From Plasmodiophora brassicae (lineage: Eukaryota; Endomyxa; Phytomyxea; Plasmodiophorida; Plasmodiophoridae), in the NCBI GenBank assembly GCA_039704465.1, contig JASFAU010000020.1, positions 587,007 through 651,006 on the forward strand: a stretch of DNA of 64,000 nucleotides. The letters are read 5' to 3'. The first letter of the stretch is position 1. The number at the start of each line of letters is the position of its first letter. The position numbers were made by a program, and so were the translations under genes. The notes beneath the pieces were generated by a model. It did no database searches. It saw only the letters and a list, made by a program, of their open reading frames with translations, and was not told the origin of the DNA. Below, one piece after another: positions 38 to 22,294 of the stretch.

Positions 38-1737
38 CGATCTGCGTAGCAACGATCTCACACATCTCACCGCCGATATGTTCGCTCGGGTCACGAACGC
101 GGCCCTCTTGTGGGTGCCAATTCGTTCGTCTGCCGCCGTCAACTGAAGCGCCGTCCAAGATTCTTGCAGGACAACCGGGTCACGTCGATCGAAAGGGGCG
201 CGTTCCACGCCCTGTCGAGGCTGGCCGTCCTGTATCAGCCAGATCGTCGCCGTGTCCAGCGCACCAGCTGTTCACCTTTCATGTGCGCATAGGTCGTTGG
301 CTGGCAACGCTATCGGGTCCATCAAACAGGGCGTGTTTGACGGAATGTCGTCGTTGACCTACTTGTATGCATATTCCGCTGCTGCGGCAAGTCGTCTTAA
401 TGTCGTCCCGGTGCGATCAACCGCCCCTGCAGATCGCTGGAACGCAACCGCGTCACATTCGTTCAGAGCGGGGCCTTCAATGGGACGTCATCGCTCACTG
501 AGCTGTGTGTACTACTGCTGATGAATGCGCAATGAATTCCTTTTGTCGTTGACTCTGTTTCAGACACTTGTCACACAACGACATCGAGTTCGTCCACAAA
601 GGCTCGTTCCTAGGCATGCCATCACTGGCGCTATTGTATTGTTTGCATTGTTCGGCGACCTGCCTCTGTATTGTGAACTAAACCATATTGTGCGCACAGA
701 TGGCTAGACGATAATCTCATTATGGATATTCAAGGCGGGACTTTTCAAGCATTGCCATCCCTTTCTGTACTGTAAGCGCGGCGTTTACCAGCGTCATGCG
801 GTTTCTCATTGCATGTAGGTCGTTGATTGACAACCGCCTCGGTGCGGTGAAGAAGGGCATGTTCAATGGAATATCCACCCTGGCGTTCCTGTGTGTGCAA
901 TCATCTTTGTTCCGAGAGCAGACGGGCCACCCCGGTTTAACCTCTATGTATCGTGCACAGATGGTTAAACCAAAACCGTATCGCCGACGTTGAGAACGGC
1001 GCTCTCGATGCGATGGGATCGCTAACGGAGCTGTACGTGTGATCGAGCTGACGTCTCGCCCACGTTCCAAACGCGGGGGACCAACTGCGTTCTGTATAGA
1101 CGGCTGTCCGACAACCTCATCGGAAGGATTCGGAGAGGCATGTTCTGCAGGATAACATCTTTGCTAACACTGCACGTGAACCTGTTGAACGCATCACACA
1201 CCCGTACCCTGGTGACATGCGTCGTGCACAGATGGATGGACCATAATTGCGTTTCGATTGTTGAGCAAGGAGCGTTCGATCGCCTGTCGTCGTTACGAGA
1301 GCTGTATGCCTTGACTTGAGGTGCGCATTCGAATGCGAACAGCTGATGAACTTCGTGTACAGGGAGCTGTCTAACAACTATATCGATACGGTCGAGACTG
1401 GTGTATTTAACGGGTTATCGTCACTGGCCTTCTTGTAGGCTTTATGCGCTCTGTGATATAAGTACTGACAAACACGATATTGTATACAGGCGTTTGGCCA
1501 ACAACCACATCACGTATATTGAGAAAGCGGCGTTCGACGGCATGTCGTCGCTGGGCACCTTGTGCGAGACACTCATGTTCAATCCTATTGAAGTCCACTG
1601 TTGACCATGTGTGTGCTGTCATGTGTGTTCGCAGGGTGCTTACAGGGAACCCGATATGCTATTGGCTGCATTGGTCGTACCCGGGTATAGCGGAGGCCTT
1701 ATGGGGACTGCCGAATCGAACCCAGGTTATATGCTGA
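38..1737 (+). CDS. LRR protein, 3' part, one repeat per 72-nt exon
   Basis: This is the 3' part of a leucine-rich-repeat gene whose start lies left of the window. Exons read 38-109, 160-231, 293-364, 433-504, 564-635, 700-771, 819-890, 961-1032, 1100-1171, 1232-1303, 1363-1434 and 1490-1561, each exactly 72 nt, then a last exon 1635-1737. All introns are phase 2 and split a Leu codon, so each exon adds one 24-residue LRR (L-x-x-N-x-I-x-x-I-x-x-G-x-F). The last exon has two Cys flanking a Trp/Pro-rich stretch and stops at TGA 1735, like a C-terminal LRR cap. No membrane segment follows the repeats, so the product is probably secreted or bound to a partner. Exon 1100-1171 ends at a GC rather than GT donor. 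Ligand unknown. Confidence 0.75.
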
Positions 1738-2037: not shown

Positions 2038-5000
2038 ATGCCGACGTCGCGGATCAGGCCTGCGTCGGCGTCGTGCGCGGCGTGGCTAATCGGCTCCTGG
2101 ACGGTTATTGTTCTGTGGAGCGTGGCGCACGCGTCGAACCTGTGCACCTGGTACGGGAAGGGATGCGCCGGTTCCGTCACTCTGTATGGTGACCTGCCCA
2201 ATGCATCTTCTTCGTCGGTTAATGTGCATGCAGCGATGTGTCGCCATTGACAAATCTCACCGGCGCGATCAACTCGACCTGGTTTTCGACTTTGCCAAAC
2301 GTTGGCAACATTCAATTCTTGTACGGCCACGTCACGGTTGCAGAGCAACGCGCGCTCACAGTACTAATATGCATTGCAGAAGTATCCATCACAACCCCGG
2401 CATCACTTCCATCACGACGGGTGCTTTCGACTCGATGCCGTTGCTTCAGATAATGTATATCAGGGCCCGCGCGAGAGAGCGCTGCCGAGTGTGACCGAAT
2501 CGATCGTGTGCCCAACAGAAACGTCGGCTCGGACTCGATCACAACAGTCCAGATCGGTGTGTTCAATACGTTAACATCATTGCAGCAACTGTCTGCCAGA
2601 TTACGTATGCCGCTCTGTGCCACCGCTGCGTCTGACGCGTTCTGGGCCGCAGGATTATCTCTGGCAACAAGATCACGCAAGCGATAGCGACCGGCGCACT
2701 GCCCGTGTCATTGCAGAGCCTGTCGGTGATTGCACGTTGTGGCAGCCACACCGAACCGGTCGACACCCACTGACCCGCTCGTACAGGGTCGTCTCGAACA
2801 ACCAAATACCGTCGATCACGGCCGGGTCCCTCGACGCGCTAACGGCGTTGACTCAGCTGTGAGGAAATGTCGAGGCACAGTACTGGGTTTGGCTCTGGCT
2901 AATTGACGTACTGGCGCCTCCTACAGGTGGTTTAGCGCCAACTCCTTACAGACCGTGCCTTCGAACGCGTTCAGGTACTTAACGGGCCTGACGCAACTGG
3001 ACCTGGGTGGCAACGTCATTACGGGGCTTCCACTGGGCGTCTTCGACACACTGACAAGGCTCCAGACTCTGTATGCTACCTCCACGACGTGATTTGGGGC
3101 GAAGCGTCGGCTGAGGCTCCCCGCCCAGGTATATCTGGAACAACAAGTTGACGTCGTTGAACGCGAACCTTTTCGCAATGCTGACACGGCTGACATCGCT
3201 GTATGGAATACGGCGCTTGGGTCGTGGCCATATGGAACTGATCATGTGGGCGTATTTGCTAATTAGTGGTATCAACCAGAATCCGTCCATTGCGTCGCTG
3301 GACCTGTATTTGTTCCAGAACTTGACCTCGTATTCTACGTCAGGCAACCTGTACCAAGCGATAAGACGGTTCCGGTGCACAGTCTTGACCTTGCGGATAG
3401 GGATCTCAACTGGCAGATGACCGCGCTGACATGCGTTCCGCTGCCGCCACCGGTGAACTTCACCAAAGGAGGTGGCTCATACGCTGTCGGCAGTCGACCA
3501 TACTGCCCTGCACCAACACCTGCACCAACACCAAGTCCCAGACCGTCAACACGGAAACCAACTATTAAGCCCAGCACAAGGCGACCTACTACCAAGCGAC
3601 CTACCACGAGACGACCTACCACGGGACGACCTACTACGAGACGACCGACCACGAGGCGGCCTACTACAAAGCGATCTACTACAAGACGACCTACTACGAA
3701 ACGGCCTACTACGAGGCGGCCTACCTCAGGTCGACCTACCACGAGACGACCTACCACGATACGTCTTACTACGAGAGGTCCAACTACGAGACGACCTACG
3801 ACGAGGCGTCCAACTACGCGGCAACCCACTTCGAGGCGGCACACTACGAGGCGACCTACCACGAGACGACCCACCACGAGACGATCTACCACAAAACGTC
3901 CAACCACGATGCGACCTACCACGAGGCGTCCAACTACGAGGCGACCCACTTCGAGGAGGCCCACTACGAGGCGACCCACTACAAGACGACCCACTGCGAA
4001 TCGAATTACTACGAGGCGACCTACCTCAAGACGACCTACTACGAAAAGACCTACCACGAGACGACCTACCACCAGGCCATCTACTTCAAGGCGGCCTACT
4101 ACAGGACGAGGTCCAACTACAAGACCACCGACTACGCAGCGATCCACTTCAAGGCGACCTACTTCAAGGCGACCTACTTCAAGATGGCCTACTACAAAAC
4201 CTACCGCAGGATCACCTTCTACGAGACGACCTACTACGAGACGACCAACCACGGGACGACCTACTACGTGGCGACCTACCACGAGACGGCCTACGACGAG
4301 GCGTGCGACTACGAGACGACCTACCACAAGACGACCTACTACGAGCCGGTCTGCCACGCGGCAACCTACTATGAGACGACCTACTACGGAACGACCTACC
4401 ACGAGACGACCTTCCACGAGTCGACCATCCACAAGACGACCATACGCAAAGCGCTCAAGCACAAGGCACCCTACCACACGACAACCAAGCACAATACGAT
4501 CGACGACAAGGCCGCCCGCGACAACGCATCCAGCAACCTCGAGACGACTCACGTCAGTAAATCATCCAGCAAGCAGGCGTCCAAGTACCGCACGGCGACA
4601 GGGTCCGACCACCAGACGGTCCACCAGGCCGACGACAAAGCACCTGGCAGCGACACATCAGACGCCAAGCCACTCGACGACGTCAAGACATCCGAGTACA
4701 TCAAGACGCCCGACGACAGTAGGAGGGCAAACAACAACGAGACGCCCAACGGGAGGTAAGATCAACATGACGACTATCGGCGGAACGGGGAAGCCTAATA
4801 CGAGCAGCAGCCCGACTAACACGTGCCTCGACTCGTGTAACCGGCCGGGGCGTCTCGCCGGTGACAAGTTCGCCATTCTGGGTTCGCCTACAAGAGCCCC
4901 CGCTGCTGGATCCTGCCCAGCCCCTGGCGCTGTATGCCAGGATCCCGCCAGCCGCCGTCGACCGGCGCCTGGTGACAACGTCATGGCACTGTGACACCCT

Positions 5001-8000
5001 GGACCTGTCGACCGCGTCCGGGAACGCGTTAACCCCACCGGTGAACACGCTGGCGCTCGTGCTGGCCCCGAACGTACTGCGGTACTCCACCACGTACCGG
5101 TTCACAGTCACTGCCGGCTTTCCAGGCGGCGTGACGACGACCGCTTCCATCATTCTCACCGTCCCAGCGGTACCCACAGGCGGCACGGTCAACGTGTCCT
5201 GGGCAGGCGCCGCCCAGGAGCTATCGACCATGTTCAAAGTCAGCACCTGGGGATGGCACGCCGATTCCCGTCTGTCGTACGCGTTCTCGTACATGATCGT
5301 GGGAGACCCGTCCGGCGCCGAGTACGGTATCGTGGCGGCGGGTGACCCGACATCGCCCTCGGTGATGACGACGTTGCCTGCGGGGAACTCGGCCGGCGTT
5401 CGGCTGCTCGTTCGTGCCATCGCGTCCGGGTCGCGCGTTCGCTCGTCGCCCGCCTGGGTCGATGTTGTCGTTCAGCGGGCGCAGCCTGAAACCGTGCTGG
5501 CCAGCGTTGCTGCCAGTGCGACCTGGGCTGGGGATCCGCCCCGGGTCGCATTGAACCGCCTGCAGACGGCCACGCTGGCCCTGAATGCTCTGGCCAACGC
5601 ATCAACGCCCAGCCCGACGTCGTCGTCACCCGTCGTCGTCGCGGCACGGTCCACACTGATATCGGCGCTGGTCGCAACGTGGTCGAACGCGACGAGCGTT
5701 GACGACGCTGCCATCCTGCTTGGGGCGCTGACCGCCCAGCCTCATCAGCTGTCGCCCAATACGACCCAGCAAGTCCTGTCGTTCGCCCGAACGCTGCTCG
5801 AGGAATCATTATCGGGCACAACGACGCCGACCTCATCATCATCGCTGACGTTCCTGGGGCTGACCGCCCTAGCTCAATCGGTATCGTCAGCGATGACCGC
5901 CTCCGACCTGATGAACACCACAACGTCGCCTGTACGATCGGTAATGGCGCCCGCGCGTACCGTCGTCGACATGATTGCCATGGCGCAGGTCGCGACAGTG
6001 TCCCCATGCCAACCCGCGTCCACGATCGCTACGCCCAACTTCGTGTCTCAGGCCTGGGCGCTGGACGGCCTCGATCACGTGAGCGGCACCTGCGATACGA
6101 CGGGCGCCGCACGCCCTTCTGCATCCGTCGTGCTTCCGTCCGACTTCTGGTCGGCGATGAACATCAGCGGCGGCGTGGGCGTACAGATGACGACGTGGGC
6201 GGGAGACCCGCAGGCATCGGCGATGGTGAACCCGGCATCCCCTGTTGTCACCGTCCGCGCCTACAACCTGCTGCTGAACGCAGCAGGGACGATGTCATCG
6301 CCCGACCCGATCCATGTACACAACCTGTCGCCCGCGTCCCCTGTCCAGGTCGCGTTGGTACCCACGACCCGGTGGCGTCCGGGCATCGACGTATCGGGAA
6401 CACCCTCGTGTCGTGCGGCCAATGCCACCCGTCCCGTTTGCGTCACGTTCGACAGCGTGTACCAGAACTGGACCACAGCGGGATGCGCGACGATCCTGTC
6501 CAGCAACGCCACATCGGTGACGTGTGCCTGTACACACCTGACAGACTTCGCGCTGGTCATGTACATGGAGCAGGTGCAACCAGCACCTGGATGTGGTGCG
6601 TCGACGTGGATCTCTGCTCAGCAAGCACTGGAGGCGGTCATCAGCGACGCCAACGCCGTCCATCGCGTGTTCCTGGGGCTGTACCTAGCGACAGGAAGCG
6701 TGTCTGTTGCGTTTGCCGCCCTGGCACGACGGCATGTCACCAAGGTGCACGCTCGACGTTCCGTATTCGTCTTGCTGTCGCTCTCCGTCACGGTCTGCCT
6801 GGTTCGTTCAGCGATCTGCGCTGTGAACCTGGCTTTCCCCGCCGCCATTGTCCCGGTCGCCGTTCTGTCCGTCCTGCCGTCCATGTGCGAGTTCTTCCTT
6901 CTGACGTACTTCATTCTGATGATCTGGTCGGTCGGCGACCGCATGAAGAGGATGTCGACGGGCGCACCCACGAATGTGCTGACTGGCGTCGTGGGGCCAT
7001 ACGTTGTCGGCAACTTGACGATATCGCTTGGCGTGCCCGCGCTGGTCATTTGTGGTGTCGCTGTGACTTCCACAGACAGCGTCGTCGTTCGGACGGTTCC
7101 TCTGTACCTGATTCTGTTCGACGTCGCCGCCGCTCTGGTCGCCGCCGCCTGCCTTCTTTGCGGGTCCTACTTTCTGTACACCAGCCGTTCCATGCGGAAC
7201 ACGTTGGCGGAGGCGGCCGTTTCCATCGGGAACCATCAGCAGGGACACGCTCAGTCGTACAGGCGCGTCGGTCGGTTTGTGTTCATCACGTGCACCCTGT
7301 TCTCGGCTGCCCTGTGCGTCGAGAGCGTGCTGTGGCTGCTGTCCATCATCGTCCCGCAGGCATACATGGCCGGGTTCCTCGGATTCTACGCCCTCTTCCT
7401 GTCCTGCGACCTGCTCTGCGTCCTACTCGTCGTCGCGTTCTGCCGCAGGACTGTGTCGACAGCGGCACAGGCCAATGCTGGCGCCGGCACGACGATAGTG
7501 GGGAAAACCCAGCGGAAACCCGGAAGCCTGATCGGGCAATGGTCGGAAAAGAAACTCTCCGGAAAGGCGAATCAAACGCTGCCGCACCTGCCCAAACAGA
7601 GTTCAGCGGCAATCGCGGTCGCTCTGGGTGCAGCAACGACTATGGAATTCGTACCTGTAGTTGCCAACTCCAGGCTTCATAACATTCAGGCGTCGGCTGA
7701 TGTCGATGCCGGAAATGGGCGACAGACCGAGCACGTCAAGTATGAAGCCGAGGCGGTCGAGGAGATCCTGGGGTGGACATGGGAGCGGGCCGTATCCGGG
7801 AAGGACGCACTGCTGGCTAAGAACCGGCCTGATGCTGTTCGGCCTCATCGAGAACCGCAACCTGAGGACTATCTTGCTAGGACTGGCCCAGACCGTCTTC
7901 ACCATCGGCAACTGTCGTTGGCGCCGGAGTCATCGTCTGGAGTTCAGGGGCCGTCTGCACGCGACATGGCACCGCAGGTGACACTACAGATGGCGCCAGG

Positions 8001-8100
8001 CTGCGCGCCCCTGGACAACAGGAACACGCAGGCACAACCTGCCCGGCGGATCGACGCTGTCGTGGGCGATCGCTCACCCGACGCCGAGGCTCACAATTAA
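2038..8100 (+). CDS. LRR-REJ-GPS-7TM adhesion-type receptor
   Basis: Eleven exons: 2038-2183, 2234-2320, 2380-2454, 2519-2590, 2653-2721, 2787-2858, 2927-3070, 3129-3200, 3267-3329, 3383-4755, 4811-8100. They sum to 5463 nt, 1820 residues. Order: signal peptide (hydrophobic residues about 14-32), about nine LRRs on phase-2 exons, an Arg/Pro/Thr repeat stalk (about 320-720), a beta-rich REJ-like region (about 745-1290), a GPS motif (Trp, paired Cys, then CACTHLT near residue 1300, nt about 6530), seven hydrophobic helices (about 1340-1610) and a 200-residue cytoplasmic tail. In known adhesion GPCRs the GPS is cut between L and T, leaving a tethered agonist. The REJ label rests on appearance and position before the GPS. 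The 7TM part is not clearly secretin-class. The 55-nt intron 4756-4810 is needed to bring the stalk into frame with the REJ-like region. Confidence 0.85.
3540..4740 (+). repeat. Coding minisatellite, R-P-T-T-R stalk of the LRR receptor
   Basis: About 80 imperfect copies of a 15-nt unit (ACN-AMG-MGR-CGN-CCT type) encode R-P-T-T-(R/K). The stalk is both Thr-rich, so a likely O-glycosylation substrate, and strongly cationic, unlike ordinary uncharged mucin stalks. The repeat opens all frames: the complementary strand has a 405-codon ORF of G-R-L-V-V repeats that I treat as a by-product. Copies vary from unit to unit, with no perfectly homogenised block. Confidence 0.9.
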
Positions 8101-8451
8101 TCCACGAGTCGTCCACTGCTGCGTGTGTCACGTTGTTATCGAAATACACACGAGGTATTTGCAGACCCGCCAAGCGTTTCAGGGCTGTACGCGAGGAACA
8201 GCATGATCCAAATTTGAAGCAGCATACTGTGCGTAACGTGCGTTGCTTTCCACGGCCAGACCATCGCAAGTGTACGAGTCTCCTGTTGACTAACGACATG
8301 GACAGGCGGTCAGCACAGTCGTCGGATCGGGATGGGCTAAACGAGTACGGATCGATGACGATCGCTCCAGAGAGCCCACGTGATCGTGACAATCGTGGCG
8401 TATCCGCGTCGACGGGTGTATGATACGGGTGAGACGGCGAAACCGCCACGA
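8101..8451. promoter_or_regulatory. Intergenic region upstream of the NHL receptor
   Basis: This is the only spacer between the two receptor genes and must contain the 3' end of the LRR receptor and the promoter of the NHL receptor. No ORF here looks coding. No specific promoter element could be assigned. Confidence 0.4.
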
Positions 8452-11400
8452 ATGCCGACCCATATCGCCTTCTGGAATGTTGTCCTCGTAACGCTTGCTG
8501 GCAGCGCTTGGGGACTAGCCGCAGGGTACACGGCAGGCAGCGTGTCGACGTACGCCGGCATCTGCCAGACGAGCGCCGGGTACCGCGACGGAGCCGCATC
8601 GACCGCCATGTTCAATTCGCCACGGGGCGTCGCCGTCGACTCCAGCGGCAACCTGTTCGTGGCCGACTCGAGCAACCACAGAATCCGGAAGGTGGCCCCG
8701 AACGGCACCGTCTCGACGTTCGCCGGCTCTGGCAACGCGGCATTCGCCGACGGGCAGGCGACCTCGGCCAGCTTCAACACGCCGGCCCAGCTGGTCGTCG
8801 ACTCCAGCGACAACATCTACGTTATGGATTCGTACAACCATGCGATCCGGAAGATCACGCCGTCAGGTACCGTCACGACGTTAGGTGCGAGTACTCGCCC
8901 GGTCATCATTTCGAGCGCGGCGGCCACTCATCGGACATGTTAACGTTCAGCTGGGAAAGGCGGCACCTCGGGATACGTCGATGCAACCGGGTCGTCGGCC
9001 TATTTCAACCAACCGTATGGCGGGTGCATCGACGCCAGCGGCAACCTGTTCGTCACCGAGGTGCAGAACAACCGGATCCGCAAAGTCACGCCGGGCGGCG
9101 TCGTGACGACCGTCGCCGGGAGCGGCAGTGCTGCGTTCTCTGATGGGACGGGCACGGCCGCCAGCTTCAACGGCCCGACTGGAATTGCGATCGACGCCAG
9201 CGGGACGCTGTACGTCGCCGACCAGAGCAACCACCGGATCCGCATGGTTCGTTTCGTCAGCGCGTCCGCCGTCGTGACAACGATCGCCGGGACGGGGAGC
9301 GGCGGGTTCCTCGACGGGTCGCCGTCGCTCGCCCTGTTCAACAACCCGTCCGGGCTGGCCATCGACGCGTCCGGCAACCTGTTCCTGACCGACAGGCTCA
9401 ACTATCGCCTGCGCATGCTGCAGGCGGCGTCGTCGTGGTACGTGTCGACCTGGGCGGGCACGGCATCGTCTGGCTATCAGAACGGGGCGCCCACGTCCGC
9501 GACGCTGAACCAGCCCACCGCCGTTGCCCTGAATGGGAACAGCTCGATCTACGTTGCGGACAGCAGGTAGAACACAGTGTGCGAAGCGGAACGCCTGGCT
9601 GACGTCGTTGTCGCTCAGCAATCATTGCGTTCGCAAGGTCCAGATCGTCACACAGGCGGTACCGGCAGCGGGAACCGTGAGCACGTACGCGGGGACGGGC
9701 TCGTCGTCCTACCAGGACGGGGCAGCGTCGACGGCCACGTTCAACACGCCGCGGGGCGTGGCCCTCGACGCATCCGGCAACGTGTACGTGGCCGATTCGG
9801 CCAACCATCGCATACGAAAGATAACGCCGGGCGGGACCGTGTCGACGTGGGCGGGGAGCGGCTCGGCTGCGTTCGCGAACGGGCAAGGCACGAGCGCCAG
9901 CTTCAACACGCCGGCGCAGGTCGTCGTGGACGCCAGCGACAACGTCTACGTCGTCGACCTGTACAATCATGCTGTACGCGTGATCACGCCGTCGGGCGCC
10001 GTCTCGACGCTGGCGGGCGCCGGGGGCACCTCCGGGTACGCGGACGGAACCGGCACGGGCGCCAGGTTCAACCAGCCGAGCGCCGCCTGCATCGACAGGA
10101 ACGGGAACATTTACGTCACCGAATGGGGCAACCATCGCGTACGAAAGGTGACGCCGGCGGGCGTCGTGACCACCGTCAGTTCTGGGCCTGTCGTTCATGT
10201 GGGCTGAACCGGTGTGGTGACTGTGACGTCGATCAGGTGGCGGGAAGTGGCCAGGCCGCGTTCGCCGACGGCACGTTCAACGCGGCGAGCTTCAGTTCGC
10301 CCGGTGGCGTCGCCTGTGGGTCCGACGGCACCCTGTACGTTGCCGATCAGAACAACCATCGGATCCGCATGGTGACGCCGACGGGCGTCGTGACCACGAT
10401 CGCGGGGACCGGGGCGGCCGGGTTCCTCGACGGGTACCCGCTGAGCGCCAGGTTCAACCTGCCGACGAGCATGGCGGTGGACGGCAGCGGGAACCTGTTC
10501 GTCTCCGATTCCTCCAACTATCGAATCAGGGTGCTGCGGGCGCCCACCTGGTACGTGACGACGTGGGCGGGCGGCGGGTCCCCCACGATGCAGGACGGGG
10601 CGCCGGCGTCGGCCGGCCTAAACGGCGCGCTGGGCCTCGTCTTCAACGGGACCACGAACCTTCTGCTTGCCGACCAGTAGTACGTTATCGGCGTCTGCGG
10701 CGTGCAACGACGACGCCCCATTGACACGCGTCTGTCCAGCAACCACCGCATCCGCTCCATTGTGTCGGTGCAGGGCGAGGTACCATCGGCGGCTGTCGCC
10801 CAGACGTCGTCGTCCCTGTCGTGGTGGCCGTATGCCCCAAGTACGGTCTCGACGTACGCTGGGACGTGCACGTCGTCCGGGTACCAGGACGGGGCAGCAA
10901 CGTCGGCAGCGCGGTTCAGCAACCCACGTGGCATGGCGTTCGACTCCAAGGGCAACCTGTACGTGGCCGACTCGGGCAACCACCGCGTTCGAAAGGTGAC
11001 GCCCGGCGGGACGGTGTCCACGTTCGCGGGCAACGGGTCGGCGATGTTCGCGGACGGGCCAGGGACGTCAGCCTGCCTGAACACCCCCAGCCAGGTCGTT
11101 GTCGACCACGCCGCCGACGACACCGTCTACGTCATCGATCGGTACAACCACGCCATCAGGAAGATCGGCCCGTCGGGCGTCGTGTCCACCCTGGCCGGCC
11201 AGGGCAACGTATCGGGGTACGTCGACGGCACGTCCGCCTACTTCAACCAGCCGTACGCCGGCTGCATCGGGGCCGACGGCAGCATCTACGTCACCGAGTT
11301 CGCCGGGCATCGCGTGCGCCGGGTGACGCGCGCCGGCGTCGTCACGACCGTTGCTGGGAGCGGGATCGCCGGGTACGTCGACGACCTGGGCACCGCTGCC

Positions 11401-14400
11401 CAATTCAGCAGCCCGGCTGGCATCACCATCGATGCCACCGGCGCGACCCTGTACGTCGCCGACCAGGGCAACCATCGCATTCGCGCCATCTCGACGTCGA
11501 CCGGGCTGGTGACGACGATCGCTGGGAACGGGATCCAGGGGTTCCTCGACGGCCCCGGCCTGCAGGCGCGATTCAATTCGCCCGACCTGCTGGCGCTGGA
11601 CGCGTCCGGCAACCTGTACGTCGCCGGCAACCTGGACCAGCGCGTGCGCGTCCTGCAGGCGTCGTCGTCGTGGTACGTAACGACCTGGGCGGGGACGTCG
11701 ACGTCCGGGTTCCAGGACGGCGCGCCCTTGTCGTCCACCTGGAACCGACCCGTCGGCATTGCCCTGAACGGGACCGACGCCGTCTTCGTCGGCGATTATC
11801 TGTACGTGGGTGGCACATTGCGCACCGTCGCCTACTCGGGGTTCCCTGATCCGATGGCCGGCCAGCAACCACTGCGTCCGCAAGATCACGATAACGTCAC
11901 CGTCGTCGACGACGATCGAGCCCGGCCCGATATCGACCTACTCGGGGATCGGCACGGCGGCGTTCCAGGACGGGTCGGGCGACAACGCGGCGTTCAACGC
12001 GCCCCGGGGCCTGGCCTTCGACTCGTCCGGGAACCTGTTCGTCTCCGACTCGTACAACCAGCGGATCCGGAAAATCGCCCCGAACGGGACCGTGACGACG
12101 TTCGCGGGCACCGGCTCGGGCGGGTTCGTCGACGGGCAGGGCACCGGCGCCAGCTTCAACACGCCGGCGCAGATCGTCGTCGACGCGAGCGACAACCTCT
12201 ACGTCATGGACTGGTACAACCACGCCGTGCGGAAGATCACGCCGTCGGGCGTGGTGTCGACGTTGGCGGGCGCCTATGGCGGTTCCGGGTACGCCGACGG
12301 CACCGGCAGGAACGCTCTGTTCAACCAGCCGTACGCGGCCTGCATCGACGGCAGCGGGAACATTTACCTCACCGAGTGGGGCAATAACCGCATCCGGAAG
12401 GTGACGTCGGCTGGCGTGGTCACCACCGTAAGTTGGTGCCCTGCATCACGCTGTCGTCGATCGTGCTGACAGGTGGGCGTTCTGTCTGCAGGTTGCAGGA
12501 AGCGGGAGCGCCGCGTTCGCCGACGGGGTGGGCACGGCCGCCAGTTTCAACGCGCCCGGTGGCATCGCCGTCGACCCCAGCAGCGGCACGCTGTACGTCG
12601 CCGACCAGTACAACCATCGCATCCGGATGATAACGACGGCGGGCGTGGTCACGACGATCAGCGGGACGGGGACGGGCGCGTTCCTCGACGGGGCGGCCGC
12701 GACGGCCGCGTTCAACCTGCCGACGCACCTGACCATGGACCGCCTCGGGAACTTGTTCGTGTCCGACAGATCGAACTATCGTATTCGCATGCTGCAGGCG
12801 TCGACCTGGTACGTCACGACGTGGGCGGGCTATGGCAGTTCGACGTTCCAGGATGGAGCGCCGACGTCGGCCGGCATGAACGAAGCGCTGGGACTTTGCA
12901 CGAGCGGCACCAGCCTATTCTTCGTCGACCAATAGTACGTGGCACCCACCTGGCCGTCCCATGTCTCGTGCCCCACTAAACGGACCGATGAACGTCAGCA
13001 ATAATCGCGTTCGTCAAATGCAGGTCATTCAAGCGCCGACCTCAACCAAGACGACGCGACATGCCACAAGGCGACCAACCACGAGGCGCCGGACGACGTC
13101 GAGGCGACCATCGACACGGAGGCCGACGACACGACGACCCACCACAAGGCATCCAACGACAAGGCGTCCCACTACGAGACGTCGGACCAGTAGACGACCA
13201 ACAACGGGACGTCCGACAACGAAGCGTCCGACAACGCGGCATCCAACCACGAGACGGCCCACAACAAGGCGCCCAACTACGAGGCGACCTACTACAAGAG
13301 GTCGGACCACTCGACGACCAACAACCGGACGGCCGACAACGAGGCGTCCTACAACGCGACATCCAACCACGAGACGGCCCACCACAAGGCACCCAACCAC
13401 CAGGCGTCCCACTACGAGACGTCGGACCAGTAGACGACCAACAACGGGACGCCCGACAACGAAGCGTCCGACAACGCGGCATCCAACCACGAGACGACCC
13501 ACAACAAGGCGCCCAACTACGAGGCGACCTACTACGAGAGGTCGGACCACTCGACGACCAACAACCGGACGGCCGACTACGAAGCTTCCTACAACGCGAC
13601 ATCCAACCACGAGACGGCCCACCACAAGACGACCCACGACAAGACGAACCACGTCAAGACGTCCAACTACAAGGCGTCGTACTACGAGACGTCCGACCAC
13701 AAGAGGGCCAACAACACGTCATCCGACGACGAAACACCGGACCACTAGACGACCAACAACCGGACGCCCGGCCACGAGACGTCCGACAACGCGTTATCCA
13801 ACCACAAGACGACGCACAACAAGGCACCCAACGACAAGGCGCCCCACTACAAGACGTCGGACCAATGGACGACCAACAACCGGTCGGCCGACTACGAAGC
13901 GTCCTACAACGCGACATCCAACCACGAGACGGCCTACGACAAGGCGCCCAACTACGACGCGACCTACTGCGAGACTTGCGACCACAAAAGGGCCAACAAC
14001 AGGCCGGCCGACGACACGTCATCCGACGACGAAACACCACACCGCGAGGCATTCCAGTACGGAACACCCGACTACGAGGCGCCGCACGACAAAGCGCCAG
14101 AGTACCAGGCGCCGCTCATCGAGACGTGTCACAACCAGGCAATCTCCCACGGGTCATCCCACGACGCGACATCCGACAGCCGGACGCCCGATAACGACAC
14201 ACCCAACAACGCGACAACCGACAACGGAGCACCTAGCAACACGACACCCAACAAGTCGTCCGACAACAACGAGGCACGCGACAACGAAACGGCGAACAAT
14301 TACGAGACGCCCTACAAGCAGAAAGACGTCGACAGCAATGAGCGTATCCACGAGACGGCCAACCACGAGACAGCGTTCGACTTATCACCGGCGGTCAGCA

Positions 14401-17400
14401 ACGAAACGCCAGACAACGGGGACGCACATAGGCTCTACGAGACGCCTCACCACGAAGCGACTTACATTGGACAGGACAACGACAAAACGACGTGCGACGT
14501 CAAGGCGAACAGCAACGTCAAGGCGGCCGACAGCCAGACAGGCGCCCATGACCCAAACCCACAGACGCACGACGACGACGTCTCGCAAGACGACCATCAG
14601 GAAACAGTCCACACGGGTACCCCATCGCACGACAACGAACAAGGCATCACCATCGCATTCGGTGAGGCCGATAAGCACGAGGAACGTGCCCAGCGACCCA
14701 ACCACGCCGTCACATGCCACCAGAACGTCCAGGCCACGAGGGACGCAGCAAGCGACGACGACATCGTACAGAGCGGTCGACAGGAGCCCAGCTGGCCGTC
14801 CGACAACAACAACCGCACCGGCGACGTCCCCGTTCTGGGTTCGTCTGCAATCGCCGTCGGCGATGAACCCTGCCGCCTCCCTGGTGCTGTACGCGACGAT
14901 CCCATCCGGCATCGATCGTCGCCTGCTGACAACGACGTGGTCCTGCGACACGCTGGACGTGTCGATCGCGTCCGGTAACGTGCTGACGCCGCCAACGAAC
15001 ACGCTGACGCTCGTCCTGGCACCGAACACCCTGCGGTACGCGACGACGTACCGGTTCACGATCACGGTCACCGTCCCAGGCAGTCGTAGCATGACGGCAA
15101 CGGCCTCGACGACGTGGACGATCGCAGCGGTGCCGACCGGGGGCACCCTGAACGTCACCTGGGCGGGTACCGCCACCGAGCTGTCGACCGTGTTCAACGT
15201 CAGCACCGGGGGATGGGATAACCCCGGCGACCCCGGCCGCCTGACGTACGCGTTCTCGTACATGTTCGTCGGGGACGCATACTCCAGCGCCGAGTACGCC
15301 ATCGTGGCGACCGACCCGACGTCAACGTCGGTGCGGACGACGTTGCCGGCGGGGAGCCCCGTCAGGGTCCTCGCTCGGGCCATCGTCGCCGGATGCGGTG
15401 TTCGTTCCGCCCCGACCTGGACGGATGTCGTCGTGCATCGCGGCACGTCGACTGGGGCGGTGCTGACGGGCGTGATCGCCTCTGCAACGAGCGTCGACGC
15501 GCCGGTACAAGTCACGATGAACCGCCTGCAAACGGCCACGCTGGTCCTGAACGCGCTGGCCAACTCAACGACGAATCAGAGCTCGTCGACGACGCTCGTC
15601 GTTGCCGCGCGATCAGCGCTCATCTCTGCGTTCGTTTCCACGTGCTCGAACACGACGTCTGCTGTCAGCGCCGACGATCTCGCCGCCCTGCTTGGGACGC
15701 TGACCGCCCAACCGCACCAGCTGTCAGCCAACGCCACGCGTCAGGTGCTGACCTTCGCCAGCAGGCTGGTCCAGCAATCGTTGCTGTCGACGTCTGGGGA
15801 GACGAGCGCATCCTCCACATCGTTGACGATGCAGGGGCTGACGGCCCTGGCCGGGTCGGTCTCGTCAGCGATCACCGCCGGTCGCCTGCAGAACGCGTCG
15901 TCACTCTCTGCCGCCCCACTCCACCACGCCGTCGTCGATCTGATCGCCTCGGCGCAAGTCGCCAGGGTGCCACCGTGTCAGCCGGTCGCGACGATCGCCA
16001 CGAGCAACTTCGTGTCCGAGGCCTGGGCCCTGGATGGCCTGGCCCACGCGAACGGTACCTGCAACGTCGCTCAACGAGCGCCCGTCGTTCTCCCTGCCGA
16101 TTTCTGGTCGGCCACGAACACGAGCGGCAACGTCGGCGTGCAGGTCACGTCGTGGGCCAGCAACCCCCAGACGACGCCCTTGGTGGACGCCGCATCGCCG
16201 GTCACGACCGTTCGGGCGTATCGCGTCGACCAGGTGCCGGGCGTGTCGCCACCCGAGCCCATCACTGTGCGCAACCTGTCATCAGCGTCGCCAATCAACG
16301 TGACGTTGCAGCAGACGTCGGGCGCCCAGCCCGGTCGTCGCCCTGCCTGCGTCACGTTCAACACCGTTCAGCAGAACTGGACCACGTCCGGCTGCGCGAC
16401 GGTTCCCACGTCGTCGTCGTCGGGCGATAACGTGTCGATCACGTGCGCCTGCACCCACCTGACCGATTTCGCCCTGGTCACATACATGGAACAACAGCAG
16501 CAGCAACCCGATCCTGGATGCGGGGCCACGTCCTGCAGTACCGCTGCCGACCGAAGGGCCCTGGAAGTCGTGCTCAGTGACGCGAACGCCATCCATCGCG
16601 CGTTCCTGGGCCTGTACCTGACGACCGCCTTCGTTGCCATTGTGCTCATCGTCCGGGCCAGGTACCACGTCACGAAAGTTCACGCCCGCCGGTCCGTGTA
16701 CGTTCTGCTCTGCCTCTCCATCGTGGTCTGTGCGGTTCGCGCCGCGATCTGCGCTGTGCACCTGGCGCCCGACACGGCCGTCATCACGCTCGCCGTTCTG
16801 TCCGTCCTGCCGTCCATGTGCGAGTTCTTCCTGCTGTCCTACTTCATCCTGATGCTGTGGTCGATCGGCGACCGCATGAAGAGGATGTCGACGAACGCGC
16901 CGTCGGGTGTGCTCAGCGGGTTCGCCAGGCCGTACGCCGTCGGGAACGTGTTGATCGCGGTCGGCGTCCCGTTTCTCGTCGTTGGCGGCGCTGCTCTGCG
17001 TCCAGCACAAACGGTGGTTTTCGGCACGACCCCATTGTACATGGCCATGTTCGATGCGGCTTCCGTTCTGGTCGCCGCCGTCTGCCTCCTGTGCGGGTGC
17101 TACTTCCTGTACACGAGTCGGTCCATGCTGAAGACGTTGGTGGACGCTGCCGTTTCCATCGGACGGCATCAGCAGGGGCACGCCCAGTCGTACAGGAACG
17201 TCGGGCGATTCGTCTTCACCGTCTGCGCGCTGTTCTCCGCCTGCCTGTGCGCGGAGAGCGTCCTCTGGCTGATGTCGATCGTCGCCCCGCACACCTACAT
17301 GGCCGGGTTCTCCGGGTTCTACTCCCTGTTCCTCGCCTGCGACCTGCTCTGCATTCTCCTGGTGGCCTCCTTCTGCTACAGGACCGTGTCGACGGCCGCG

Positions 17401-18090
17401 CAGGCCAGCTCGGGCGCCGCCGCCAACCGTTCCACCGTTGTCGACGTCGCAGCGACTCGGAAGCGATGGTACCTCGGCGCGACGTCGCAGTCGACATCGC
17501 AGAAAGCCTTGAAGAGCGGTCGCGATCCAAAGACGAATGGCCTGGCGCCGTCGCATCGTCCAAAGCAGAGTTCCGCGTCGATAACCATCGCGCTTGGTAC
17601 GGCATCGTCGGGCGAATTCGCCCCTATTGCTGTCGAAGCGAGGCATCGCAACGGTTCAGCCAGCAAGATCGGGTCCCTGGCGCCCGACACGTTTACCCTT
17701 GAGGCCGACGTGGCGGAGAGCATCCTGGAATCCTCATGGGAACATGTCGTTCGGCGCGTTCGGCGGTCACCGAATCCGCCATGCGCGGCGGCGGCCCCTG
17801 ACGGGCGTCCTCAACAAGAATCGGATTTCGTCAAGCACCTGGTTAGAACGGTCAGGGAGCGCGTCCAGCATCAGCAACTGTGGCTGGCGAACCCGACGAT
17901 CGGTCGCGATCCGCAGCAGGTCGTGCGCGATGTGACAGCGCAGCTGATGTTGCAGATGGCCCCAGAGCGCACATCGCTGGACAACATCCACAACCAGGCC
18001 CAGCTTGTACAGAGGATCGATGCGATTATCCGCGAACTGGTCGCATGCAACCCGGCCGAATCGGAACAATGTGCTGAATATAGGTCATAA
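8452..18090 (+). CDS. NHL propeller-REJ-GPS-7TM adhesion-type receptor
   Basis: Eight exons: 8452-8884, 8951-9566, 9619-10174, 10237-10679, 10740-11801, 11866-12427, 12492-12934, 12999-18090. They sum to 9207 nt, 3068 residues. A signal peptide (MPTHIAFWNVVLVTLAG...) is followed by 24 NHL repeats in four six-blade blocks (residues about 27-1370), an Arg/Pro/Thr stalk (about 1383-1976), a REJ-like region, a GPS motif (CACTHLT near nt 16,450, residue about 2520), seven hydrophobic helices (about 2570-2840) and a long tail. Everything from the stalk on parallels the upstream LRR receptor almost segment by segment, so the two are paralogues with different heads. The start is the first ATG before a hydrophobic leader. 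Each intron falls at the same point of the propeller repeat and restores the VTTVAG or D-x-N-H-R-I-R consensus. Ligand and signalling partner are unknown. Confidence 0.88.
8530..12934 (+). repeat. Four tandem six-blade NHL modules, about 1.1 kb each
   Basis: The NHL region repeats with a period of about 345 codons plus introns: modules at about 8530-9566, 9660-10679, 10830-11801 and 11920-12934. Blades within a module carry an ordered signature: STYAG, STFAG, STLAG, TTVAG, TTIAG, then YVTTWAG. The same order recurs in all four. NHL propellers usually have six blades, so each module probably folds as one closed propeller. Conservation of blade order shows whole-propeller duplication rather than single-blade expansion. 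Introns recur at equivalent sites: three modules are split after the fourth T-T and all four end in a phase-2 intron. Confidence 0.85.
13030..14810 (+). repeat. Coding minisatellite with higher-order repeats, stalk of the NHL receptor
   Basis: This is the same five-residue R-P-T-T-R type unit as in the LRR receptor, but longer and organised into near-identical higher-order blocks of about 240 nt (for example 13,150-13,390 and 13,390-13,630). That indicates recent homogenisation by unequal exchange. After about 14,100 the units decay into looser Thr/Arg-rich sequence. Confidence 0.88.
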
Positions 18091-18823: not shown

Positions 18824-20551
18824 CTAGCTGACGGCTTCGACGCGGTTGAAGACGGCCGATGTGAGCTTGTGGTCGCCGGAATCGGCATCGATGCCCCAGA
18901 TGGACACGCCTTTCAGGCCCAGCGAGAACGCGTAATCGATCTTGGCGACCAACGTCTTCGCATCATCATACGCGACAAACCTATATACCATCGTCAGTCA
19001 ACCGCGATCACGCCTCGCAGCGTCGACAGCGCCGAATCGTACTGGTCGGCGTCGTAGGTGAAGTATTCGCACTGCTGGACGGTGTCCAGCTGGACGACCG
19101 GCTGCTTCTTCGAAACGATGTCGTGGATCTCGAAGTAGGCCAGGTACCCGGGCTGTCTGGTGCACCCGGCGTTCGCCTCCTTCTGCGCGCCTGTATACGC
19201 GGGAGCATTCATCGCGGGCCCTGCGGCGCCGACACAGTTTCAGGATCAGTTGCCCCGATAGACGGGCCGTCCCCGCCGACCTGCTTGACCGGTCGGGACA
19301 GGCGTCTTCAGCGCGTAGGCGATGCCCCAGAACGACAGGCCCAGGTTGAACTTGCCGGGACCGTGCCCGGTGGAATTCGCCTGATCCAGGAAATACGCAA
19401 TGGCAGCCGCCTGGGAATCGCCGTTCTTGTCCGCGTTGTGCAGAGCGGCGGAGCACCCCGTGTAGGGCTGCCATGTCCCCAGTACCTGCAGGGGGCGCCA
19501 CCGTCATACGAATGATACGCATCGTCGGGCAGCAGTGCCCTGAACCGACGTTGTATCCCAGGATGTTGATCCAGTCGACGTAGGCGACCATCTCGGGCAC
19601 CCGATAGTTCTTGCCCCAGCCAGGGCCACCCGGAACAATGGTGGACAGGACCAGGCGCGATTGCCCATCGGACAGCACCTCGCTGTCGATCGCCTCGCGC
19701 ATGGCCCTCATCAATGCGGCGAACGATTCGGGATCGTTGGTGCTCCCTCCACGCGACGTGTCCCCGGGGAACTCCCAATCGAAATCTGGGGACGCAGGGC
19801 ATCAGCAAACATCCTGGGACCCTTCACCCGACGAGCAACGTACCCAGGCCGTCGAATCCGTACCTGCGCGCGAACTCCACCGTTGCCTTGGCGAACGTCT
19901 GGCGGCGAGAGGCGTCAGCAGACATCTGCGACATTGGCGCCACGCTCTGTCGACAATACGAGACTTCATCAGACATTGGTTCAGGCGCCGTCGACGGCCA
20001 GCGCGATTACAGGGATGTCGCCACCAACGGACAGCATGGTGGTCAGCAACGGGTGCGACCTCTTCAGCGCGTTGAACGCCCTGTAGTTGTTCGCCTCCGC
20101 CTCGCTGGGGTCCTCGAGCACCCAGGTCGTCAGGCTGACCGGCGGCGAGAACGAGTAGATCAGGTGCGTGTACAGGTGGGCCTGGACCGTCTCGGGGGTC
20201 AGCTGGGGCACCGACGTGCAGTTCCCCGAGCTGATCGTCTGGCGCGCACAGCCCCTGTGAGCACACACGCGACGCGGATGGCGCGTTCGCGATCCTTACT
20301 GGGTAGTAGTACCCGATCATGCGGTTGTCGGTCGCGAACTTGGTCGGGTAGGCGGCACCTGCCCCACCCGCGGGCGCCGACGGGCGCGCGCCGAACGCCG
20401 CGCCAATCTGCTTGGCGTACGCGGCGCACAACGCGATCGCCACAATGACGATGACGAAGGCGGCCGCGGCGCCGTGCGTCGCGCAGCGCTGACGGCGACG
20501 CTCGCGAAGGTACTCGTCGACGCCGCCGCTGAAATCGTCGTGCTGCAGCAT
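18824..20551 (-). CDS. GH18 chitinase-like protein, type II membrane-anchored
   Basis: Seven minus-strand exons: 20551-20300, 20238-20011, 19946-19844, 19785-19550, 19485-19290, 19220-19043, 18980-18824. They sum to 1350 nt, 449 residues. Residues about 27-47 form one hydrophobic segment after an Arg-rich stretch, so it is probably a signal anchor with the enzyme outside or in the lumen. GH18 landmarks appear in order: a YYYP first strand, a SVGG turn, then DGLDFDWE (the DxxDxDxE catalytic motif, with the acid Glu present) formed across intron 19843-19786, an INILGYN strand and a GVSIWGID C-terminal strand. GH18 enzymes cut beta-1,4-N-acetylglucosamine polymers. Here it may digest food or remodel the cell's own cover. 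Confidence 0.88.
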
Positions 20552-20752
20552 TGGGGCTCCTACCCACAGTTACCAGAGTGACGACAAACTCGGACGATAA
20601 CAAGTTCGGCGGAACTGAAGGCACCCTCACTGGAGATTCCCTCCGAAACGACCCGCGCAGTTTCCGAAACACTGCGCCGCGAGCTACTTACTTCATACGC
20701 GGCACACACCAACTGCTCGCCGCAGACGTTATAGGAACGGGGAGCGATCGGT

Positions 20753-22294
20753 TTACGGATGAGGAGCGTCGGACGGGGCCAGACTGATGCCGACGCTGGC
20801 CAGAGCATCGACGATCCAGCCGGGGACGGCTCTGCGATCCAGGCTGGCGCCGTTGCGGGTGCGTCGTTCGGTGAAGTACCGCGACATGAACTGGCGAACG
20901 AACTCGGGGAACCGGCGCTGGGTGATGCTGTCGCGCATGTCGCGCATGAGACGCATGTGGAACGCGATGTTGTGCACGCTGACCAGCTGGCAGGCGCCGT
21001 GCTCGCCCAGCGCGAACATCATGCGGATGTGACTTCGCGTGTAGTCTCGACACGTACTGCAATTGCAGTCCTCCTCGATCGGCGAGTAGTCGTGTTCGAA
21101 GGACGCCCGTTTCAGATGCAGCGTGCCCCGGCGCGTCAACGCGTTACCCATCCTCTACAACGAACGCAAGGTTATTGGTCGCGGCATTGCACACGTCATT
21201 GCTGTGAAACCAACCGCGGTGCGTGTGGGAAACACTGAACAGCCACAACAGCAGCAACAATCAGTTCATGCTGTCGCCAACACTGAACCATGGACATACC
21301 GCAATCAAACATGTCAACGCCAAGGGCGACGCAGACGACCAGGTCTTCCGGGAACCCGACACCCATGCAGTAGCGAGGCTTTTCTTCGGGGAGGAGATCG
21401 GTGCACAGGCTGACGCTACAAGCGGGCCGTTCAGCACGTCAAGCCTGCCGGTACAGACGCAAAGCTACCATCTCCAGAATTCGTCTTTGCTTTCGCCACC
21501 GGATAGACCGCCGATGGCATACCCCGGGCAGTTGCGCTTGACCATCTCCTCAACGCATATGCGTCGCAGGTCGTGGTCCAGCCCGCCCTGGACGATGGCG
21601 AACAGGTTCTGGTCCTGACGTCGCTCGTGCGCTGCCAGGCACCGATCCAGCCACCGAATCGATCTCCACATGGCCTCCTCGACCCTGCACATCGTCGTTA
21701 GCATGGCGCCTCATCGCGACCAACCATGGGTGGCACCTCGGTCCAGTTGTGGTGGATGAAACGACATCGTCGAGTTGCATCATGATGTCGCTGCCGATGG
21801 CATTCTGCATGGCAATGGAATCCTCGGGCCGTAGGACGAGTTCCGTGGCGTTATCACGATGCGACACGAACGTCACGCCTTGCTCAGTTACATTCATGAG
21901 CTTGGCGAGCGACACCATCTGAAATCCGCCAGAATCCGTTAGGATCGCCCTCGGCCACCGCATGAATTTGTGTAGGCCGCCGTACGTGTTCTTCATACGT
22001 TCCAGGCCCGGCTGCAACGCCAGGTGGTAAGTGTTCCCCAGGATAATCTGACAGTCCAGCTCAGCCAGCTGCGACGTCGTCAGACCTAGTGCCGCACAAA
22101 TGGAATAATGAGACGGCGCGCGAACCGGGGCGACACGAGCCACGACACGCACCTTTCATGACGCCAGACGTCGCAACCGGCATGAACATGGGCGTCGGCG
22201 CATTCGCCAGATGCGGCAAGGTCATGCGCGACACGCGCGCCTTGGTCGTTGGGCATTTGGCGTCAATGGTAAACCGCAGCGGCCACGGCTGCAT
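20753..22294 (-). CDS. QTRT1: Queuine tRNA-ribosyltransferase catalytic subunit
   Basis: Six exons: 22294-22153, 22085-21737, 21684-21469, 21409-21300, 21234-21215, 21154-20753. They give 1239 nt, 412 residues, the usual length of the eukaryotic catalytic subunit. It exchanges guanine for queuine at the tRNA wobble base. Visible landmarks: [28 protein letters not shown] (an active-site Asp), GGLSGGE, the DMFDC nucleophile region, VFPTRTAR, and the zinc site C-x-C-x2-C with a following His. The fifth exon is only 20 nt and encodes the FPTRTA loop. The gene faces QTRT2 across 160 bp. Confidence 0.93.

Follow-up and report, generated by a model that had tools for sequence, protein, structure and literature searches.

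What are two adjacent genes that end in the same long tail and yet begin with unrelated heads? This question is raised by the last 64 kb of contig JASFAU010000020.1 of Plasmodiophora brassicae (Rhizaria), namely C20:587007-651006 (contigs are abbreviated in this way throughout, and "the window" is this whole stretch). Here, we propose that the two genes, gene 1 and gene 2, are probably paralogous cell-surface receptors in which a conserved signalling tail is joined through a hinge to exchangeable heads, built of leucine-rich repeats (LRR), NHL propellers, or CAP domains, and which would work by the mechanism outlined below. Their architecture, the continuity of head with tail, and the discordance between heads and tails in the family are established at the level of sequence.

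One tail behind two heads

Gene 1 consists of an LRR head, a hinge, a REJ-like/GAIN region, a GPS, and seven transmembrane helices (7TM), and gene 2 of four NHL propellers followed by the same elements in the same order (Table 1). The original prediction had read a common stalk, REJ-like region, GPS, seven helices, and tail behind different heads, and the comparison bears this out: the genes are 63.2% identical over the REJ-7TM part, the heads are unrelated (no similarity by BLASTP, best E 8.3), and Pfam confirms LRR_8 in one head and NHL in the other. Over the whole C-terminal part, from SPFWVRLQ onwards, BLASTP finds 608/1102 identical residues (55%), and the nucleotide identity of the tails is 69% over 2,687 columns. 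The GPS (PF01825) is above the Pfam cut-off in both genes (2.2e-9 and 3.4e-6), all 16 matches at E<=1 between a GPS query and PDB sequences are adhesion G protein-coupled receptors (GPCRs), and CTHLTDFA is unchanged in 9 aligned rows. The segment past the GPS, TDFALVM in gene 1 and TDFALVT in gene 2, is similar, as a motif only, but not identical to the tethered-agonist consensus of adhesion GPCRs, TxFAVLM (PMC12716839, in excerpt).

Three database proteins correspond to such tails: P0001 and P0002, both filed as "PKD/REJ-like" from P. brassicae, are respectively 99.8% identical over 1,077 columns to a C16 gene at 804k and 97.9% identical over 994 columns to the gene 2 tail, and P0003 is 100% identical to the tail of the paralogue C18a. 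Neither gene 1 nor gene 2 matches Pfam REJ. We call their region REJ-like because paralogues do match it, namely four of six scanned proteins of the 7TM family (C12, C17, P0001 with 1.3e-11, and P0003), the tail of the P0001 gene being 60-61% identical to theirs. An AlphaFold2 model of gene 1 places seven helices at 206-376, where GAIN subdomain A is expected, with a predicted local distance difference test score (pLDDT) of 42-80 by block; in the beta part of the GAIN region pLDDT is below 50.

The gene models use GT-AG introns of 50-68 nt, with junctions picked by hand to keep the frame and the repeat pattern. For gene 1 this splicing is independently supported, since the spliced head matches Pfam LRR_8 at 9.4e-39 (131 bits, cut-off 27), whereas two unspliced stretches of it give 0.05 and no match. 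Introns 1-9 are in phase 2 throughout, for which the chance is about 5e-5 if introns are independent and phases equiprobable, an independence that repeat duplication breaks. Intron 10, in phase 1, separates the hinge from the REJ-like region, and the acceptor of exon 11 may be 4808 or 4811, equally good and three bases apart. In gene 2, the intron ending each NHL module (after 9566, 10679, 11801, and 12934) is in phase 2. Pfam NHL is over the cut-off in all six head frames scanned (8e-13 to 3e-24, 48-84 bits against 20); exon 10237-10679 lies outside those six, and its NHL matches come from a separate scan. TEN_NHL also matches the head, and a blade profile built from gene 2 finds 21 blades inside single frames, with intron-cut blades uncounted.

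Might the heads and the GPS-7TM exons nevertheless be separate adjacent genes, with the chimaeras arising by exon joining on paper? P0002 and P0003 are indeed models without the NHL part, and our junctions were chosen by hand from DNA alone. However, intron 12935-12998 cuts the last NHL blade of gene 2, whose second half (NNRVRQMQ) sits in the exon that encodes the hinge, GPS, and 7TM, and the paralogue C18a has the same arrangement; head and 7TM therefore look like one gene. Moreover, splicing at these junctions leaves 1,821 and 3,068 codons uninterrupted by a stop, and CAP, REJ, and GPS stand together in one database protein, the CAP-headed P0001. We give the separate-gene reading very little credence.

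What the seven-helix part resembles

Past the GPS, there are seven hydrophobic peaks in gene 2 and nine in gene 1, where one peak spans two modelled helices and another lies in the cytoplasmic tail, and AlphaFold2 models seven long helices there for gene 1. The model is weak and does no more than hint at a GPCR bundle: class A and class B2 GPCRs compare alike with the 7TM part, at a Z that helical models often reach, and Foldseek with the whole tail model returned no GPCR among its best 50 entries, which were mostly of FN3, Ig, and complement type. For the 7TM there is nothing above a curated Pfam cut-off, nothing in NCBIfam, and no PDB-sequence match to a 7TM profile, and PF00002 (7tm_2) has no match in the genome at E<=1, a search in which control genomes gave no match either. 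From the GPS, phmmer runs weakly into transmembrane helices TM1-TM4 of ADGRG6 (E 0.00075), although a profile of the 7TM alone matches nothing. The description "adhesion-type" in the original prediction stands for the GPS, found above the Pfam cut-off in both genes, and its surroundings, but is putative for the class of the 7TM bundle, which matches no family. A candidate identity as THH1/TOM1/TOM3 (PF06454) was rejected: it appeared in C18a alone, at E 0.023 and below the cut-off, with the first helices aligned out of register at positions 165-218 of 273.

The tail might have been assembled apart from adhesion GPCRs, from a polycystin-1-type REJ-GPS region and an unrelated 7TM, with the likeness being convergent. 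We regard this as possible but somewhat doubtful. It agrees with the 7TM matching no known family and with Pfam REJ occurring in a GPS gene on C4 and in the four of six family proteins, genes 1 and 2 not being among them, while the closeness of TDFALVM to TxFAVLM and the weak extension into ADGRG6 speak against it.

The genome also encodes G-alpha (PF00503, 82 exon-level matches at many loci). Matches on C1, C3-C5, C7-C9, C11, C13, C15, C16, C18-C20, and others give the appearance of a large expansion; the count is of exons and not genes, and its weakest members may be other GTPases.

Heads, tails, and the hinge across the genome

Is the pairing of different heads with one tail peculiar to this locus? 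The original prediction had suggested looking for further members in the genome, and these exist: with the GPS profile PF01825 at E<=0.001 (20 candidates scored) we found 14 GPS loci in the 25.34 Mb, 21-contig genome, and extracted GPS frames from all of them. Using profiles made in this analysis, we assigned an NHL head of 20 blades to C18a and CAP heads to three C16 genes. C12, C2a, C8, and C2b are preceded on their own strand by LRR exons and were assigned by position (about 8 kb away in C2a), and the C17 head has no Pfam match in six frames. Ten of the 14 loci entered a tail tree; left out were C2b, in whose frame no helices are visible, C3 and C4, which differ past the GPS, and C18b, with a 292-aa frame.

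The tail tree unites genes 1 and 2 with the three CAP genes (support 95/100, and 100/100 in a repeat) and leaves C12 (LRR) and C18a (NHL) outside. Tails and heads thus group differently: an approximately unbiased (AU) test rejects the NHL-headed tails as one clade with p 0.00035 (10 rows), 7e-7 (8 rows, omitting C2a and C8), 0.001 (REJ-GAIN half), and 0.0026 (GPS-7TM half), and likewise rejects a clade of the LRR-headed gene 1 and C12 (2e-6, 10-row tree). The labelled rows, which exclude C17, require a minimum of three head changes, on a tree that is unrooted and in which the tree program flags long end branches. The head of gene 2 and the spliced head of C18a are 56-78% identical in 14/14 windows of the alignment, whereas their tails are 29-52% identical in ten windows (residues 2001-3000) and their hinges barely or not aligned, a step that is unchanged over six splicing variants. 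C18a can be spliced at five of the seven intron places of gene 2, in the same phase (with gene 2 as the guide in choosing sites). In addition, a gene on C14 (C14:415.6-418.5k) has two propellers of the gene 2 type (42-57% identity in 12 aligned pieces) and, behind them, a Pro/Thr linker and a single strong hydrophobic peak; C14 has no GPS match. The NHL head is therefore a unit that recurs on tails of three kinds, in gene 2, C18a, and the C14 gene. Thus, the gene models, the tail phylogeny with its AU tests, the identity step at the head/hinge border, and the NHL head on a single-helix tail support the ectodomain exchange on a common GPS-7TM tail that had been suggested for this locus.

Conversely, there may have been no swap, with one head being ancestral, the others gained once each, and the likeness of the tails maintained by tandem gene conversion. 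Genes 1 and 2 adjoin, and tandem copies in general often undergo conversion. The GPS-7TM half of the tail also pairs them as sisters (95/91), a relationship that the REJ-GAIN half does not resolve, and unrooted counts cannot give the direction of change. Yet the tails of the three C16 CAP genes resemble those of gene 1 and gene 2 to about the same degree (60-63%), so the tail clade extends beyond this locus, and the minimum of head changes stays at three; moreover, if tails are converted with breakpoints in the hinge, heads and tails are thereby exchanged. We consider a history without exchange unlikely.

The borders of the exchanged heads lie on the 5' side of the hinge minisatellite. In genes 1 and 2 the hinges are 15-bp minisatellites that read R-P-T-T-R in frame, and a minisatellite hinge is present in four of the five genes of the clade of genes 1, 2, and the CAP tails. 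Genome-wide there are 19 exact copies of a two-unit pattern, 10 in genes 1 and 2, eight in two C16 genes, and one at C8:977660, whereas the same pattern read backwards, as a control, has none. The RPTTR pattern is absent from the short hinges of the third C16 gene and of C18a, and C2a has a related Thr/Lys/Pro repeat that the exact pattern misses. We infer that recombination in this minisatellite may have caused the head swaps. The single copy on C8 (977660-977688) is the only exact RPTTR pattern outside receptor genes.

An LRR gene just upstream of gene 1, seen by the original prediction as a possible donor of LRR exons, is unneeded in that role because C12, C2a, C8, and C2b also have upstream LRR exons; by inspection its last frame stops at 1737 without a hinge or GPS, and it is not part of the receptors. 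Among the remaining GPS loci, C2b (C2:706.6k) has LRR exons and a GPS with no helices in the GPS frame by reading, and is perhaps a secreted form or has its helices in later exons. The GPS genes at C3:530k and C4:788k are unlike the 7TM group past the GPS; the latter, with REJ, a weak EGF, and GPS by Pfam, looks polycystin-like and has no Pfam PLAT in the parts scanned. Other NHL genes, at C9:331k and 335k, are 32-42% identical to the gene 2 propellers. A search against phage DNA gave no match, and Rfam gave none in the window at gathering scores.

Table 1. Features of the window (position 1 is its first nucleotide; a dash or two dots mark a range).
Feature	Position	Strand	Content
Gene 1	2038-8097, stop to 8100	+	11 exons, 1,821 aa, no internal stop
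Gene 1 head	2038..3329	+	signal-peptide-like start (by reading; hydrophobic peak, residues 11-29), LRR exons
Gene 1 LRR exons 1-5	2038-2183, 2234-2320, 2380-2454, 2519-2590, 2653-2721	+
Gene 1 LRR exons 6-9	2787-2858, 2927-3070, 3129-3200, 3267-3329	+
Gene 1 exon 10	3383..4755	+	LRR end and cysteine cap (by reading), then Thr/Arg/Pro hinge
Gene 1 minisatellite	3579-4426		15-bp unit, 56.5 copies, within exon 10
Gene 1 exon 11	4808..8100	+	REJ-like/GAIN from 4870, GPS from ~6433, seven helices to ~7480, cytoplasmic tail, stop 8098-8100
Gene 2	8452-18087, stop to 18090	+	8 exons, 3,068 aa, no internal stop
Gene 2 head	8452..12934	+	signal-peptide-like start (by reading; hydrophobic peak, residues 5-23), four NHL modules
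Gene 2 head exons 1-4	8452-8884, 8951-9566, 9619-10174, 10237-10679	+
Gene 2 head exons 5-7	10740-11801, 11866-12427, 12492-12934	+
Gene 2 exon 8	12999..18090	+	second half of last NHL blade, hinge (repeats ~13133-14254), REJ-like/GAIN from 14827, GPS from ~16342, 7TM, cytoplasmic tail, stop 18088-18090
Upstream LRR gene	38..1737	+	cut by window start; mostly 72-nt LRR exons, ends fit phase 2
Open frames	18998-20600	-	DFDWE motif; presumably resembling GH18 chitinase
Open frames	21430-22155	-	which we take to resemble queuine tRNA-ribosyltransferase

Proposed mechanism and place among known receptors

In light of this architecture, how might the receptors work? The GAIN domain would cut itself at H-L-T during maturation, with the head fragment staying bound, and binding or pull on the head would then expose the tethered agonist (TDFALVM... 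in gene 1, TDFALVT... in gene 2), which would switch the 7TM and G proteins. Recombination in or beside the low-complexity hinge would replace the head and keep the tail, so that one signalling output may become wired to new binding surfaces, the ligand changing with the head.

In common with adhesion GPCRs (class B2; animals, choanoflagellates, and filastereans), the genes have a long modular ectodomain, a GPS with H-L-T, a tethered-agonist-like segment, seven helices, and domain shuffling in the ectodomain; they differ in their rhizarian host, the REJ-like region before the GPS, the NHL and CAP heads, and in having no PF00002 match and no HRM among Pfam matches. With polycystin-1 and PKDREJ-like proteins they share a GPS, and some of their paralogues Pfam REJ, but they differ in having seven modelled helices rather than eleven, other heads, and no PLAT (Pfam, open reading frames to their ends). 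NHL propellers are common to gene 2, teneurin, and bacterial NHL proteins, and to our knowledge those of the latter two are not attached to a GPS-7TM tail. Among other ectodomain modules, PQQ and RLD are propellers. These are named, along with LRR, in filasterean receptors (PMC12716839, in excerpt). In the same organism, 7tm_3 fusions with bacterial solute-binding domains also combine a 7TM with an unusual ectodomain, but their 7TM is of class C, they are reported as transporters, and the excerpt does not mention a GPS (PMC4815078).

As judged from titles and the opening lines of abstracts, the literature matches listed show no architecture that joins NHL to a GPS or a GPCR, and "NHL" is absent from the portion covered of a review, 300,000 of its 412,533 characters (PMC13197933). 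No rhizarian GAIN-7TM appears among the literature matches listed, although a prior description of some of the genes is possible in a work on P. brassicae GPCR signalling (Bi et al. 2019, Phytopathol. Res. 1:12); the main text of two genome papers (PMC4815078; PMC4471660) contains neither "GPCR", "G-protein", nor "NHL". The P. brassicae secretome is enriched in LRR domains and includes a PR-1-like cysteine-rich secretory protein (PMC4471660). A nitrogen-responsive "NHL-repeat binding protein" of the species (PMC8298192, in excerpt) could not be matched to a locus, and a GPCR-pathway inhibitor that lowered symptoms (PMC9180986, in excerpt) is not specific to genes 1 and 2. Our own protein searches each scored up to 8,000 candidates with exact words in common; two of them matched P0001, P0002, and P0003, one matched nothing, and no homologue outside P. 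brassicae was named, which does not show absence elsewhere.

According to a 2025 survey, linked GAIN-7TM occurs only in holozoans, the fusion dating to stem holozoans, and non-holozoan adhesion GPCRs are without extracellular domains (PMC12716839, in excerpt). Either the P. brassicae genes contradict this holozoan-only distribution or they represent an independent fusion. We lean towards the view that Rhizaria have GPS/GAIN-7TM receptors with large exchangeable ectodomains, the module being far older than Holozoa or else a second assembly, convergent, with a REJ-type stalk and exchange at a minisatellite hinge.

In form, the P. brassicae family runs counter to the survey, and it makes it testable whether GAIN-7TM is old or arose repeatedly. 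It also forms a natural series, in which a single tail comes with several heads and the hinge can be recognised, for studying how ectodomain shuffling happens and whether the GPS/tethered-agonist switch can operate under any head. P. brassicae lives as a parasite inside plant cells, where receptors of this kind are candidate sensors of the surfaces of the host or of siblings.
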